36,555 nt of DNA. It comes from a virus. Where the stretch lies: IMG/VR virus record IMGVR_UViG_3300044998_000785, positions 1-36,555 of that record. One strand, given 5' to 3'. The position numbers and the translations under genes are program-made. Below the pieces are notes generated by a model that was given only the letters and a program-made list of their open reading frames with translations, was not told the origin of the DNA and did not search any database. Positions 261-36,555 of the stretch are shown piece after piece; within the stretch, counting starts at the first letter, position 1, and each line of letters begins with the position of its first letter.

Positions 261-1469
261 ATGAGTAAAAACAAGTGTACAGCCACAGTAATACTGAGAA
301 AAGATAAGTTCAACCCCAAAAATGGCATGGCACCGGTGGCCATTCAGTTTTTTATAAACGGAACCAGAAAGGTTGTTTCACTAAACATATACATACAGCC
401 TAAGTACTGGGATGAACAAAAAAGAAGAGTAACAGCCGGAGCTGAATCGATGAAAGACTATAATTTAATCATTGAACAGGCATTGGCAAAAGCCAACAAA
501 ATATTTGTTGACTACCATTTAATGGAGAAAGAACTATCAACAAAACAATTTCTAGATGAGTACTCAGGGCAGGCAAACAGAAATGACTTTATTAACTTTA
601 TGGAAACTGAACTGGAAAGGAGGTTAAAGTACGATGTTATTTCAAAGGGAACATATAAAGGTCAGAAGTCCACTCTTACCAAGCTTAAGAAATATAAACG
701 CACGATACTTTTTTCTGAACTAACTCCTGACTTTATTGAAAAGTTTGATGGCTGGCATAAAAGATACTTAGCTGGTAGCTGCGGTAAAAGAGGACGTAAT
801 CAGGTTAATGATTCATTTAATACGCGACAAAAAGCAAAATCACATATACGTACGTACATCAATCTGGCTATACAACGTAATAATGTAAGGATAGACAACC
901 CTTTTAAGGTCATTAAAGTTAAGTCAATTAAGGGCAGTCGTACATTCCTGGAAGTGGATGAATTATTAAAGTTAAACGAATTGTTTGATAATGGTAATAT
1001 AACAATGACAGATAAAGTAACACTTGCAAAATTTCTGTTTGCATGCTTTACAAGTATTCGTGTAAGCGACAGCCAAAGGTTACATGAAATGAGATACTCA
1101 GATGGTTGTATTACATTCATTCCTGTAAAAACACAACGCCTTGGTAAACGTGTAACAATACACTTAAACGAAACTGCCCGTAAATACTATCAGTGGCTAA
1201 AAAAATGTGACTTTGTAAACTACAGCGCAGAGGAAATGAACAGATCTTTAAAACGTATTGCTAAATCCGCTATTATTAATAAAGATATAACTTTTCATGT
1301 TGCCCGGCACACTTTTGCTACCCAATTCATTAGTAATGGTGGTGATGTTGTGGTATTACAGGAAATACTTGGACATAGCGATATAAGGGCAACAATGATT
1401 TATGTGCACATGGCGCGGAATGCTGCAAAGAAACAGATTATGAATATGGATAAGATTTTTAATATATAG
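261..1469 (+). CDS. int: Phage-type tyrosine recombinase (integrase)
   Basis: This 402-residue protein has the layout of Bacteroidetes phage and conjugative-element integrases: an N-terminal arm-binding domain (about 1-90, with the pattern QPKYWDEQKRRV), a SAM-like core-binding domain (about 105-205) and a C-terminal catalytic domain. The expected catalytic residues are R267, K290, H346, R349, H372 and nucleophile Y381 (motifs HVARH and GHSDIRATMIYVH). It would catalyse integration and, with a directionality factor, excision, probably at the adjacent tRNA-Arg. It is the only large gene on the plus strand and faces the last minus-strand phage gene, whose stop lies 6 bases away. No excisionase was recognised. 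Family assignment is firm; the target site is inferred from position. Confidence 0.93.
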   Translation: MSKNKCTATVILRKDKFNPKNGMAPVAIQFFINGTRKVVSLNIYIQPKYWDEQKRRVTAGAESMKDYNLIIEQALAKANKIFVDYHLMEKELSTKQFLDEYSGQANRNDFINFMETELERRLKYDVISKGTYKGQKSTLTKLKKYKRTILFSELTPDFIEKFDGWHKRYLAGSCGKRGRNQVNDSFNTRQKAKSHIRTYINLAIQRNNVRIDNPFKVIKVKSIKGSRTFLEVDELLKLNELFDNGNITMTDKVTLAKFLFACFTSIRVSDSQRLHEMRYSDGCITFIPVKTQRLGKRVTIHLNETARKYYQWLKKCDFVNYSAEEMNRSLKRIAKSAIINKDITFHVARHTFATQFISNGGDVVVLQEILGHSDIRATMIYVHMARNAAKKQIMNMDKIFNI

Positions 1470-16034: not shown

Positions 16035-16383
16035 CTTGACTATCCTCCCAAATTAAATAGGCTTTATACCAGTCGGCCATTCTGCGAAGAGCACCCGTCA
16101 TTTTATCAGTTAGAATGCTAACATCTGTTTTTTGAAGTTCAATATCATCAAACCAGATAGGCACAAAAAAAATTGTTTCAGGATGGTAATCTAATCTTTG
16201 ATAAACAGCCCAATCCATCTGTATTGATAAAATTTGATTTTCGGATAAATCTTCAAAGTGGTGAACTTCTGCCAATAAACGAGGCTCACGGTTGTGTAGG
16301 ATAAACAATCTGCCATCAGATTTGTCAATCATTGGGTTCTCGCATAGGAGGAAAGCGGGTGGTTTATTGTTCTTCGTATTCAT
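16027..16383 (-). CDS. Unknown protein in the helicase-ParB operon
   Basis: This 118-residue acidic protein has no recognised domain. Visible patterns are PAFLLCENPMIDKSDGRLFILHNREPRLLAE near the N-terminus (described in parts: strand, turn, strand) and a C-terminal helix with ALRRMADWYKAYLIW. It overlaps both the ParB-like gene (20 bases) and the ribbon-helix-helix gene (8 bases), so it belongs to the same translationally coupled set. It may be a small partner of the ParB/PAPSR pair. Confidence 0.6.
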   Translation of the reverse strand: MNTKNNKPPAFLLCENPMIDKSDGRLFILHNREPRLLAEVHHFEDLSENQILSIQMDWAVYQRLDYHPETIFFVPIWFDDIELQKTDVSILTDKMTGALRRMADWYKAYLIWEDSQDE

Positions 16384-16909
16384 CGTATTTCTTTTTAGTG
16401 TATAAAATTTTATCGTCTGGATTACGCTCCCAACTGTTTGAATGTTTTAAATCTTTAAACTCATCTTTCAAAATGCCTCCTTTTCGGTAAATAACAACTT
16501 CTTCAGCTTCTGCACCTATTCCATCGGCAACATCGGCCATTTCTTTTTTTTCTAATAGCTTATTAAATATGTTGCTAACAAGCTTTAGCTGATGTGTGCC
16601 TTTTGCTTTGTTGTGCCGTATGGTGCTCATCATTCTCTCTTCAATAGGCTTTTCAATAACAGAAACAGGGATTTCTTGTATCTTCATTTTTAGCAATACT
16701 GAGTAACGATGAAACCCATCCACGATTTCATAAATATCATTTACAGCATCGTAATAAGTAACAATTGGCATGGTCAATCCATCTTCGGTAATACTTTTTT
16801 TTAGCAACCTAAACATTTTGGCTTCCATTTTATTAGGGTTATAGCCATTAGGTTGTACCTTAGCAATTGGCACTAACCTTACATTTAAACATGGGAATTC
16901 TATTTTCAT
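16364..16909 (-). CDS. ParB-like (ParB/sulfiredoxin fold) protein, IbrB-like
   Basis: This 181-residue protein carries the ParB N-terminal fold. VPIAKVQPNGYNPN is followed by a helix (RLLKKSITEDG), the box VDGFHRYSVL (64-73) and the box IRHNKAKGTH (97-106) that in this superfamily lines the nucleotide-binding site. It lacks the C-terminal dimerisation part of chromosomal ParB. Stand-alone ParB-fold proteins paired with a PAPS-reductase-like protein are known from E. coli as IbrA/IbrB (regulators of immunoglobulin-binding proteins) and are common in phages. The gene overlaps its PAPSR partner by four bases. CTP or ATP binding is plausible; the biochemical role here is unknown. Confidence 0.85.
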   Translation of the reverse strand: MKIEFPCLNVRLVPIAKVQPNGYNPNKMEAKMFRLLKKSITEDGLTMPIVTYYDAVNDIYEIVDGFHRYSVLLKMKIQEIPVSVIEKPIEERMMSTIRHNKAKGTHQLKLVSNIFNKLLEKKEMADVADGIGAEAEEVVIYRKGGILKDEFKDLKHSNSWERNPDDKILYTKKKYDEYEEQ

Positions 16910-17883
16910 AATTCGTTTGCTTTTAGTTCTTCTTTAAGCCTATTAAAATGTTTCATGTTATGATCTTTGCTGGCTCCTCTTTTTTTAATGGCCTTTGCCT
17001 TGGCAATTTTTTGAACACGAATTTCTTTATCTTCCATAATTGCTATATCAGCAATTTTGCGAATAATCATATCGTAATAGGCGATATCAACCTCTTTGAT
17101 AAGTTCAATCTTTTTAAGGGCATTCACATTTAGGATTGATGCCGTTCGCATCTCCTGCACGGGCATATTCTTTTGATAGTACATATCGTAAATTGGGTTA
17201 TATGGGATATTGTTGTCGGCAATAAATTTCCAATCATCCTTATCGTACCAATCATAAATAGGATAGAAGTTAAAGTTTCGAGAACCAGTGCCTTTACTAC
17301 TCCATGGTATTCCACTAATACCATCGCGAGATGTTACAGCAACATATCTACGCAGACTTTCTTGCGCTCTTAAACCAAGCAAAAACGCACAGCCATTTAG
17401 CTTTTGTTCGGCATAAAAAGATGCTGATATTTTCCGAATTAAGCTGCTTTTTTTCGGCATCTTCATAGTCATGTCATGATGAAAGCAATCCGCTGGCAAC
17501 GGCCTTACATTTTTACTCTCATCATTTGCCCATACTTCAATTACTTTATCATCCAAAAAGGTAACCTTACGCCACATACGTGGGCAAACCCAATAAAATT
17601 TAAGGTATTGCTCTTTATATTTTTCACGTATTGACTCAATGTAATGGATGGTGGTAATGTTTTCAATTTCCTGATCAATAAATATTATGTTGAATTTTCG
17701 GTTGTGTTTTTCAGCATATTTAAAACATAGGAATAAAACACAGGTAGAATCTTTCCCGCCTGAGAAATTAACAAATATCTTTTCGTCTGTATATCGGTCA
17801 AAAACCAATTTTATGCGCTCATAAGCTGCATCTAATACAGATTTGTCTTTATTATACAATTTAGCTGGTGGTTTGGCTCTCAT
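16906..17883 (-). CDS. PAPS-reductase-like (PP-loop ATPase) protein, IbrA/DndC-like
   Basis: This 325-residue protein has the PP-loop SGGKDSTCVL at 41-50, which binds ATP and activates a substrate by adenylation. Later GLRAQESLRRY (about 175) and the pattern YPIYDWYDKDDW (about 210) are typical of the phosphoadenosine phosphosulfate reductase family. The C-terminal tail is very basic (KAKAIKKRGASKDH), suggesting nucleic acid contact. Relatives include IbrA and DndC. It is coupled by four-base overlaps to the SNF2 gene before it and the ParB-like gene after it. Phage copies have been suspected to take part in nucleic acid modification or gene control, but a reaction is not established. Confidence 0.88.
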   Translation of the reverse strand: MRAKPPAKLYNKDKSVLDAAYERIKLVFDRYTDEKIFVNFSGGKDSTCVLFLCFKYAEKHNRKFNIIFIDQEIENITTIHYIESIREKYKEQYLKFYWVCPRMWRKVTFLDDKVIEVWANDESKNVRPLPADCFHHDMTMKMPKKSSLIRKISASFYAEQKLNGCAFLLGLRAQESLRRYVAVTSRDGISGIPWSSKGTGSRNFNFYPIYDWYDKDDWKFIADNNIPYNPIYDMYYQKNMPVQEMRTASILNVNALKKIELIKEVDIAYYDMIIRKIADIAIMEDKEIRVQKIAKAKAIKKRGASKDHNMKHFNRLKEELKANEL

Positions 17884-34006: not shown

Positions 34007-34510
34007 GGCATAAATTTCGGCAAAGAGCGACCACAATAACTATTAACTTTCGTTTGAAAATATGTTGTTTTAATATTAGATATGAACAGGCTGTGAAGAC
34101 AAAATGTTAAAATAGATGCGGTGTGTATGCTCTAAGATTTTACCAAAAATGCGCAACTGAACCAAACATCAAAAACCTGAGGGCTTAAAATCACGCAAAA
34201 AATCTGAAACTTTGTAACTATGTATCTACTTACTGATTTTCAACAAATTGCAGTTGTAAACCGTTGCCCAAAATTTTGTAACCGGGCGTCCCCTTTTTTG
34301 TAACCGGGCGAAGCCAATACTTTGGTTTACAAATTTTTTGTATCCTTTATATTGAATATATACAAAAAAATGTAAACTAAACAAACCGAGGCGGGGCTTG
34401 CCTTTTAAGCGGTTGGAATAGTTTGGTTACAGAGTTACAAAATTTTTGCGCTAAAAAAGATTGAGCGGTTTGGGGGAAACCGTGTAAAACGGCTATGGAT
34501 GATTTTTTGC
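34007..34510. other. Gene-free control region with GTAAC repeats and a large dyad
   Basis: About 500 bases without a credible gene. TTTTGTAACCGGGCG occurs twice (34274-34288 and 34296-34310, 22 bases apart), with further GTAAC/GTAAAC elements at 34211, 34254, 34324, 34371, 34425 and 34434 in both orientations. A dyad pairs 34321-34342 with 34361-34381 around an AT-rich centre. The pattern suggests binding sites of a replication or control protein, an att arm region, or an origin. No promoter box could be fixed. Confidence 0.5.
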
Positions 34511-34540
34511 AAAAAAAAGGCTCGGCATTTTTGCCGAGCC
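34511..34540 (-). terminator. Terminator downstream of the integron-type integrase
   Basis: GGCTCGGC and GCCGAGCC enclose a short loop, followed on the minus strand by eight T. It marks the end of the recombinase transcript and separates it from the phage block. Confidence 0.88.
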
Positions 34541-34558
34541 ACCAGGAATTAATTAGGC

Positions 34559-34576
34559 GCCCTATCGGGCTTTTTT
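34559..34576 (+). terminator. Weak plus-strand terminator-like hairpin
   Basis: GCCC-tatc-GGGC followed by six T on the plus strand. The stem is only four pairs; no gene on the plus strand ends here, so its role is open. Confidence 0.35.
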
Positions 34577-34670
34577 ATGGCGCTTACGCGCAGCTGTGCG
34601 CAACGGATGCTCAGTGAGCAGCCTTATAATATACACGAGAATTTTACGCAGCATTTAGCAAAGTTAGCCA

Positions 34671-35501
34671 TTATGCCGAAAGTAATGCCAGTGGCGAAGG
34701 CGTGTTGGCTATATGCATCTGGCTAATGTGCTGGTATCGCATGGTGGTTTTGATATTACTGTGCCCCATGAGCTGTTGTATCATCCTCTCGTTGATGTTG
34801 TGCTCCATCAGGTGAGTGGCAAAGCAATGCCGAAGGGTATGTGCGTGTATGGATTTATTGATACCTGCAATAGCTGCATACTTTTTTAAGAACTGATTGA
34901 TGCTGCGCTCACTGTACTGTGGTTCAAACTGCCCGTTAAATAAATACTTCACCGGCCGGTAGGCTTTGTAGTAGGATCGCAGAGCCGATAAAATTGATTC
35001 GTCAAGCATGACATTGCGGTCTTTCTTCCCTTTAGCTTCGCGGATATGTATCACCATGGCTGAGCTGTTGATATCGGCAATTTGCAGATTGATTACTTCG
35101 CTTACCCTCATTCCGCATCCGTAAAGAAGCATAATAATGCATTGATGTTTTGTGTTGGTGCATGCCGCTATAAGTCTTTTTATTTCATCTTGTGTTAGCA
35201 CTACCGGAAGTTTGTTCCCTTTTTTGGCGTAGGGGATATATCTCAATTTCATGGGCTGCTTAACGGTTAGTTTATAGAACTTTTTAAGAGCGCTGTGCAT
35301 GCTACGTTGATACTCTGCACTGGGTAGTTGTAACAAGTAATTTTTGATTGCATCTTCATTAATGGCCTTTGGCTCTGTCATTTGTTCAAAGTGTTTCAGG
35401 TATGTGCCTACGTGATCAGCATAGGTCTTTATGGTTGACTGCGCCAGCCTCTCTACTCGCATATCGCGAATAAATGTTTCAATGTACTTTCGAATATTCA
35501 T
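34671..35501 (-). CDS. IntI/Xer-type tyrosine recombinase next to attC-like sites
   Basis: The 276-residue protein has a SAM-like N-terminal domain (1-95) and a catalytic domain with R132 (GCGMRVSEV), Lys in AKGKKDR (157-160), H221 and R224 (HTLRH), H247 (MGHSNI) and Y256. The end TPSPLALL resembles the end of integron integrases (SPLD). It is 60 residues shorter than IntI1 and has no insert between the box-I arginine and the HxxR region where IntI proteins carry their extra domain. It reads away from an attI-like site and two attC-like sites, so a cassette-integrating role is likely. A plain Xer resolvase is the alternative. Confidence 0.85.
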   Translation of the reverse strand: MNIRKYIETFIRDMRVERLAQSTIKTYADHVGTYLKHFEQMTEPKAINEDAIKNYLLQLPSAEYQRSMHSALKKFYKLTVKQPMKLRYIPYAKKGNKLPVVLTQDEIKRLIAACTNTKHQCIIMLLYGCGMRVSEVINLQIADINSSAMVIHIREAKGKKDRNVMLDESILSALRSYYKAYRPVKYLFNGQFEPQYSERSINQFLKKYAAIAGINKSIHAHTLRHCFATHLMEHNINERMIQQLMGHSNIKTTMRYQHISQMHIANTPSPLALLSA

Positions 35502-35553
35502 AGTGTATTTGTTTGATTTTAATTAGATTATAGGTAGTTTCTCAAAAACGCAC

Positions 35554-35560
35554 GTTAGCA
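35554..35560 (+). promoter_or_regulatory. attI-like core site
   Basis: GTTAGCA, with recombination expected between G35554 and T35555, lies 52 bases before the recombinase start codon. Its first six bases are complementary to R'' of the first attC-like site (GCTAAC, 35922-35927), as expected if cassette 1 was inserted here from a circle. Confidence 0.55.
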
Positions 35561-35575
35561 GTCATGGCTACCATC

Positions 35576-35884
35576 CTACTCCGTTTGAGCAATTAACGAT
35601 AAATCCTGACCGTAATATTGATTAAGGTTACAAATCTGCGGATGGCTATCAATGTATTTCATCAACGCACAATCTTTAGAATGAAACCAGCTTACTCCAT
35701 ACCAAGGCTGATAATGTTCTTCACAAAATTTGCAATCACATTCAACCTTTCCGATTTTGTGCCGCCACTTGAAATTAAAAGGCACAATAATTTTGTAACC
35801 TTTATCAATCCAGTTTTTTGGCTTTCGCTTCGTCAATTTGTTGAAGTTTCCGATTATGTGTATTCCGTTAAAATATGCTCCCAT
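35576..35884 (-). CDS. Cassette 1 protein, Cys/His-rich, unknown
   Basis: This 102-residue protein has a cysteine/histidine cluster (CDCKFCEEHYQPW, then WFHSKDCALM and later a Cys in PQICNL) which suggests metal binding, and a basic N-terminal half (KLTKRKPKNWIDKG). No family recognised. It reads toward the recombinase, against the array direction, so it probably needs its own promoter. The cassette spans about 35555-35997 (443 bases). Confidence 0.62.
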   Translation of the reverse strand: MGAYFNGIHIIGNFNKLTKRKPKNWIDKGYKIIVPFNFKWRHKIGKVECDCKFCEEHYQPWYGVSWFHSKDCALMKYIDSHPQICNLNQYYGQDLSLIAQTE

Positions 35885-35921
35885 ACTATTTAATTTTATC
35901 GTTAATTAATCGCCACGAACC

Positions 35922-36005
35922 GCTAACAGCGGTTTTGTGCAAGCTGCCCGACCGCTCAATGCCAACGCTTCGCAGCCTGACACAAAGCCGCAAAACGTTA
36001 TAGGC
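35922..36005 (+). repeat. attC-like site 1
   Basis: R'' GCTAAC (35922-35927) and R' GTTATAGGC (35997-36005) flank arms GCGGTTTTGTGCAAGCTGC (35929-35947) and its imperfect complement at 35972-35991. One base is left unpaired, as the extrahelical bases of attC sites. At 84 bases it is within the usual size range. Expected cut between G35997 and T35998. Confidence 0.75.
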
Positions 36006-36030
36006 AATATTAAAAACTGCCAACGCACTA

Positions 36031-36282
36031 CTAATTAATAACAATTTCTTCTATATTTATTTCAGCACCATACGAACAGAAATCTAATGCTCTTAAAACA
36101 ACTTTTCCTTGTCCTTTTGTCAATTGTGTATCTTTCCTGAAAAACCTTTTTTGGATATATTCATTTGCTACTTTAATAGCATCTTCTAAGTTGTTTTTAT
36201 ACCCCAATTGTTCATAAACATATTTATCGGGGTCTCTACTTGTGTCTGCAAGATTTCTTTTTGTATAAATTTTGTAAGCCAT
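36031..36282 (-). CDS. Cassette 2 protein, unknown
   Basis: 83 residues: YKIYTKRNLADTSRDPDKYV, a helix with EDAIKVANEYIQKRFF, then KGQGKVVLRALDF and a short acidic end (EINIEEIVIN). No family recognised. It also reads against the array direction. The cassette runs from about 35998 to 36431 (434 bases). Confidence 0.62.
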   Translation of the reverse strand: MAYKIYTKRNLADTSRDPDKYVYEQLGYKNNLEDAIKVANEYIQKRFFRKDTQLTKGQGKVVLRALDFCSYGAEINIEEIVIN

Positions 36283-36301
36283 CGCTAAAGTTTTTAATAC
36301 A

Positions 36302-36439
36302 GCCTATAACATACGCTATACAAAAGTGGGGCTGTGTGCCAAATTTGAATAGTTGTGCATCTAATTTGCTTTATCAGGTAAGCGGAGGGTTGTGCATCTT
36401 AATCCCCACCTTCGTATAAGCGCGTCAGCCGTTATAGCC
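36302..36439 (+). repeat. attC-like site 2
   Basis: R'' GCCTATAAC (36302-36310) and R' GTTATAGCC (36431-36439) flank arms at 36313-36331 (ACGCTATAC...GTGGGG) and 36404-36423 (CCCCACCTTCGTATAAGCGC), which pair with two or three mismatches. The centre of about 70 bases contains two near-copies of GTTGTGCATCT. Length 138 bases, at the upper end of the attC range. Confidence 0.72.
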
Positions 36440-36446
36440 AAGTTTA

Positions 36447-36555
36447 ATGACGACCAAAGACCTTAATATCATTGACGACTTACTGACAAGAACTATTAAC
36501 TTGCCAGACATCTTGCATTTAAGAGCATCTGACATTGGGTATGAATTGACAGAAG
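36447..36555 (+). CDS. Start of cassette 3 gene (cut by window end)
   Basis: ATG at 36447, open to the window end: MTTKDLNIIDDLLTRT then INLPDILHLRASDIGYEL. It starts 16 bases past the expected recombination point of attC 2 and reads in the array direction, the classical cassette orientation. Too short to name. Confidence 0.6.
   Translation, partial: MTTKDLNIIDDLLTRTINLPDILHLRASDIGYELTE

Follow-up and report, generated by a model that had tools for sequence, protein, structure and literature searches.

An integron-like gene-cassette array headed by a tyrosine recombinase without the IntI insert, most likely carried by a phage of Bacteroidota

The window analyzed here, i.e. the whole stretch of 36,555 bases, is a linear IMG/VR virus record whose end at position 36555 cuts through an array of small genes and hairpin-forming sites. 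The array is accompanied by a tyrosine recombinase and located at the opposite end from a tRNA gene and a phage integrase:

48-122, plus strand: tRNA-Arg, probable attL of the prophage (context)
261-1469, plus strand: phage integrase with arm-binding domain (PF17293, PF13102, PF00589), different from the array recombinase
34671-35501, minus strand: tyrosine recombinase of 276 aa, XerA/IntI-like, without IntI insert (PF00589, 1.3e-42)
35553-35559, plus strand: attI-like junction (CGTTAGC), separated from the recombinase start by about 50 nt; predicted cut between G35554 and T35555
35555-35997, plus strand: cassette 1, 443 bp, delimited by the cut points
35576-35884, minus strand: gene of cassette 1 (102 aa), pointing against the array; an ORF of phage record G436 shares 93% aa identity
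35918-36006, plus strand: attC-like site 1; 45.1 bits and E 3e-8 with model R2, 41 bits with model R1, absent from the training of both
35998-36431, plus strand: cassette 2, 434 bp, delimited by the cut points and by pairing of R'' with its own R'
36031-36282, minus strand: cassette 2 gene (ORF), 83 aa, reversed relative to the array
36301-36440, plus strand: attC-like site 2; 67.0 bits and E 4e-13 with model R2, window outside training
36447-36555, plus strand: start of a third cassette, 109-base open start of an ORF cut by the contig end

The main phage genes, among them those for a head protease, a tail tape measure protein, an endolysin, a helicase, and a ParB-like protein, are located on the minus strand up to position 34036. 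A noncoding gap of about 0.6 kb (34040-34670), containing a terminator-like hairpin, separates the last of these genes from the array recombinase. An arm-binding domain, as expected of the phage integrase of a prophage of this type, was found only in the protein encoded at 261-1469 and is lacking in the array recombinase. The ParB-like protein (16364-16909) is adjoined by a phosphoadenosine phosphosulfate reductase-like gene (16906-17883, minus strand). An Rfam search of the window returned the tRNA as its single match, a distant blastn comparison of the window with phages gave no matches, and no relatives of the MCP were found in IMG/VR. The search of the window for an attR of the tRNA-Arg integrase revealed no repeat of at least 14. 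An exact 12-mer of the tRNA-Arg anticodon arm (69-80) at 36522-36533 was considered as an attR candidate and rejected; since no tRNA sequence follows, this match probably is due to chance.

The attI-like site was recognized by its position and short core alone; other recombinases likewise have GTTR junctions, at 38-131 nt from their start. The two attC-like sites are located on the same strand, one per cassette, with the R' cores CGTTATAGGC (site 1, GTT at 35997) and CGTTATAGCC (site 2, GTT at 36431). Cuts at the GTT of the attI-like site and of these cores would thus release cassettes of 443 bp (35555-35997) and 434 bp (35998-36431). The attI-like core, the two hairpins, and both cassettes had been described in the first-pass annotation with coordinates and lengths that proved exact. 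It had further counted three small genes, one per interval, of which two are complete, whereas the third is a 109-base open start running from 36447 on the plus strand into the contig end. The array reads along the plus strand, divergent from the recombinase, with the genes of both complete cassettes on the minus strand. Compared to GTTRRRY, the core GTTATAG keeps the GTTR and departs at positions 5 and 7. Neither cassette gene matched a family in Pfam, PHROG, or PADLOC, and no close relative of the cassette 2 gene was present in IMG/VR.

The best PDB match of the recombinase is the XerA-like 4a8e (7e-38), and its R...K..H-x-x-R..H..Y residues align with those of 4a8e and 5hxy. With 208.5 bits for NCBIfam NF040815 (cut-off 220) and 185.5 bits for TIGR02249 (cut-off 265) it stays below both thresholds. 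The segment from LF to HTLRH comprises 35 residues in the window protein, 35-36 in its relatives (41 in two; 30-36 in viral ones), 35 in XerC/XerD, and 46 in IntI. This short segment indicates that the IntI insert is absent from the window protein, as had been noticed at first reading, and from its relatives. The alignment with IntI4 (PDB 2a3v) breaks at the insert, and that with 4a8e extends throughout. In an IQ-TREE phylogeny XerC/D formed one clade (100/100) and IntI one side of a branch (92/62). The window recombinase, whose placement in such a tree the first-pass annotation had suggested as a check, belongs to neither and is thus not nested within XerC/XerD; it groups as sister to the recombinase of phage record G418 (91/95). 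One IntI sequence (L058) was mis-extracted and gave a long branch, of which these conclusions are independent. Separate XerC and XerD were encoded in 6 out of 6 array genomes examined and fell into their own 100/100 clade. Short peptide patterns yielded no close relatives of the recombinase in IMG/VR and one 20% match among the genome contigs, which served only as a handle. At loci L043 (genome G315) as well as L037 and L039 (genome G003), a second, different insert-less recombinase was found at a distance of a few kb from the first one, either inside the array or close to it.

Around relatives of the recombinase, a crude stem detector first revealed hairpins of one design, whose orientation was fixed from gene positions in bacterial genomes. 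The order of elements is gene, R'' (..YAAC), 1 nt, stem, loop, stem, about 5 nt, and R' (GTTR..). The stem of these sites is long, pairing over about 18 bp, and includes A.C mismatches that are conserved; the alignment A3 contains no conserved extrahelical base or bulge. Covariation in A3 was 0.614 versus 0.169+-0.022 in shuffles, with double changes in 17 out of 18 inner-stem pairs. The bottom strand folds better in 42 of 50 viral sites (p 1e-8) and 31 of 47 bacterial sites (p 0.011); here, the conserved A.C mismatches of the top strand turn into G.T pairs.

Model R2, a covariance model of 17 genomic sites from which the window was excluded, recovered the two window sites and no further one over 36.5 kb in a permissive search, site 1 being missed under default filters; E-values of covariance models are rough. 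Folded as single sequences, the window sites outperformed shuffles only to a moderate extent (z -2.1 and -1.6). Hence, it is the family model and not single-sequence folding that lifts these hairpins above chance, and the attC-like hairpins reported in the first-pass annotation can be regarded as real. The low folding scores would agree with a Xer or phage recombinase that happens to lie beside unrelated palindromes. Such a coincidence is hardly credible, since it is contradicted by the two matches of a model built without the window and by cassette 1, which recurs in another phage at the same position.

Our bacterial sample consisted of 395 genomes, possibly MAGs, from the phylum to which GTDB assigns a Melioribacteraceae MAG. 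This phylum is taken to be Bacteroidota in the broad sense, with no finer taxonomy claimed, because SusD genes number 18 to 50 in some array genomes, in support of Bacteroidia. Recombinase relatives, scored at E<=1e-40, were present in 108 genomes (best identity 39-45%) and R2 sites in 180. Sites were found in 95 out of 108 recombinase genomes versus 85 out of 287 others (OR 17, p 1e-26). Without the 9 recombinase genomes that supplied training sites these numbers changed to 86 out of 99 versus 85 out of 287 (OR about 16), and in genomes without IntI the OR was 13.7. In contrast, classical IntI did not co-occur with the sites (OR 0.62). Classical IntI above the TIGR02249 cut-off was detected in 106 of the 395 genomes, which is above what would be expected from published surveys of Bacteroidetes.

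From the 150 best sites, 43 were located within 30 kb of a recombinase, and in 42 of these R' points away from it, which corresponds to integron polarity. Recombinase and array share their direction at 18 bacterial loci and diverge at 8. No close recombinase was present in 85 of the 180 genomes with sites. In G060 (L097, L098) and G191 (L102), there was no recombinase within 11 kb (upstream of one G060 array), or truncated recombinase pieces were found at the array head (L098 4286-4630, L102 10711-11219); these arrays are decayed heads and CALIN-like. The divergent cassette system of Bacteroidetes proposed in the first-pass annotation is borne out by same-strand hairpin arrays in phages and in many genomes of the Bacteroidota group, with insert-less recombinases at their heads; relatives of the window recombinase carry long arrays.

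These associations also bear on the idea that the window contains ordinary integron cassettes (CALIN) moved by a classical IntI elsewhere, the neighboring recombinase being a bystander. An attC site of Polaribacter phage P12002L is used by class 1 IntI1 (PMC9892861), and the intergenic sites of this phage share the present design, although the tested ones may differ. The co-occurrence of sites with the insert-less recombinase instead of IntI, also where IntI is missing, together with the adjacency and constant polarity of this recombinase, makes such an origin quite improbable.

In viral sequences, one exact consensus pattern matched 69 IMG/VR contigs. R2 gave 172 matches over 71 viral sources, which form same-strand arrays with a median spacing of 424 bp. 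Neighboring sites shared the strand in 113 out of 113 viral and 32 out of 32 bacterial cases. A recombinase was identified in 5 out of 40 checked viral records (G418, G411, G398, G421, and, truncated, G424) and in G436 as a sixth; all six share the layout of the window. The G418 record also contains a terminase gene, and its array lies next to a helicase gene; in G436 the array is located between terminase and replication-initiation/RecT genes. Sites of this design are also carried by phages P12002S and P12002L, NC_028763 being P12002S, not P12002L. The median length of ORFs in phage cassettes is 79 aa, and several of them encode DNA methylases.

The gene preceding a site shares its strand in bacterial arrays (53 out of 55), where sites lie 2-30 bp past stop codons. 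In viral arrays this gene is on the opposite strand (110 out of 113). Judged by this opposite orientation, phages and bacteria harbor two nearly separate cassette pools. Both complete cassettes of the window have the viral orientation, and their spacing of 443 and 434 bp is near the viral median.

A host chromosomal cassette array next to a prophage, on a contig running past attR, would explain the linear record with a host tRNA-Arg at its start and the noncoding gap with a terminator-like hairpin before the recombinase. However, the window contains no attR, its reversed genes and spacing are viral and unlike those of bacterial arrays, and the nearest recombinase and a homologous cassette reside inside phages G418 and G436. 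We therefore consider a host array unlikely and phage ownership the better reading. The window array probably is of phage type, an ownership that had been missed in the first-pass annotation, and, judged from these sequence features, it is most likely phage-borne in this contig, which ends inside the array and in which no attR was found.

If excision occurs between G and TT and the released cassette circularizes, R'' is expected to be complementary to the R' at the far end of its own cassette and not to the R' that it meets in the array. In the viral set including the window (n=105), R'' formed 5.13 out of 6 pairs with the R' of its own cassette and 3.10 with that of the same site (p 2e-14). 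The corresponding values for bacterial arrays were 4.63 and 2.50 (p 1e-4). In cassette 2 of the window, the R'' GCCTATAAC is fully complementary to the R' at the left end of the cassette (GTTATAGGC) and shows one mismatch to the same-site R' GTTATAGCC. This comparative evidence indicates that the cassettes are cut between G and TT and were formerly closed into circles.

Exchange of cassettes is illustrated by the xVYLTRKKW cassette, named here after a peptide of its gene product. It comprises about one R'-to-R' unit with 86-95% DNA identity and unrelated flanks in five phage contigs:

L118, 5058-5579
L136, 10575-11101
L164, 4823-5328
L129, 7132-7569
L227, 7070-7502

The gene encodes 120 aa, and the five viral contigs are of very different size. 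Cassette 1 of the window has a counterpart with 85% identical DNA over 35564-35914 in IMGVR_UViG_3300015171_000006. Its relative in G436 (93% aa identity) occupies the first position beside a 36%-identical insert-less recombinase, and the homology between window and G436 starts 10 nt past the GTT of each attI. Thus, cassettes occur in differing contexts and not at fixed places in all relatives, the arrangement that the first-pass annotation had named as speaking against a cassette system.

Good folding and, in bacteria, the positions of sites 2-30 bp after stop codons might suggest a role of the hairpins as RNA elements or terminators, the arrays then being operons with repeats. But the hairpins are oriented opposite to the genes in phages, the bottom strand is the more stable one, R'' pairs with the distant R' of its own cassette and not within the hairpin, and cassette sharing ends at the cut points. 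This renders such a function in RNA very improbable.

Altogether, a temperate Bacteroidota phage very probably carries an array of mobile gene cassettes that operates in the manner of an integron and of which the locus is the end next to the recombinase. This enzyme (34671-35501) would act on the attI-like site before its own gene and on the attC-like hairpins ending each cassette. Cassettes would be cut between G and TT, circularize, and be reinserted at attI or another hairpin, probably as folded bottom strand. Architecture, site family, association, circularization signature, and cassette transfer between phages were established by comparison. Our results combined with integron biology suggest that catalysis is mediated by the window recombinase, and the folded bottom strand probably is the strand chosen. 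The cassettes presumably benefit the phage, and the arrays may provide a route for phages to trade small early genes, e.g. DNA methylases.

A survey with the standard tool listed Salinibacter as the one case of a complete integron in Bacteroidetes proper (PMC9024848), compared to 180 out of 395 genomes with the present site family. In a literature search excluding preprints and including few subscription papers, we encountered no earlier account of such arrays with an insert-less recombinase at their head; priority is uncertain. The I2/patch III insert has been described as IntI-specific (PMC4792948; PMC9668308). It has also been stated that I2 occurs in integron integrases alone and that its origin poses a chicken-and-egg paradox, and a viral origin of integrons was speculated (PMC4792948). 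A cassette system that is common in phages, lacks I2, and has hairpins in which no extrahelical base is conserved makes the question of I2 origin directly testable. Tentatively, this I2-less system of phages and Bacteroidota might be a sister or ancestral branch of integrons, a missing intermediate with hairpin cassettes preceding I2 and phages as a main reservoir, a possibility that we rate as somewhat less likely than its opposite.

Like integrons, the system combines a recombinase, an attI-like junction, same-strand attC-like hairpins, a cut between G and TT, complementarity of R'' to its own R', and cassettes in various contexts. In contrast to integrons, the window recombinase has no I2/patch III insert, the stem is long without a conserved extrahelical base, and phage cassettes hold reversed genes. 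IntI holds extrahelical bases via the I2 domain (PMC4792948). The missing I2 domain and the missing conserved extrahelical base fit together, which is not proof. This is a divergent, insert-less, integron-like system: by a strict IntI-based test it is not an integron, yet it works like one. With XerA, XerC, and XerD the window recombinase shares a catalytic domain without insert, but array genomes carry XerC and XerD separately and in a clade of their own. In pdif modules, gene modules are moved by Xer-like enzymes at double-stranded sites of 28 bp, whereas sites of the window type are hairpins of about 90-140 nt. Phage attC sites, including those of Polaribacter phage P12002L, of which one works with IntI1, have been reported as CALINs (PMC9892861). 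These share with our arrays the attC sites and the small genes and methylases in phage genomes, and the sites of P12002S and P12002L belong to the present family. The phage CALINs were reported without an integrase, whereas the window array is headed by an insert-less recombinase.
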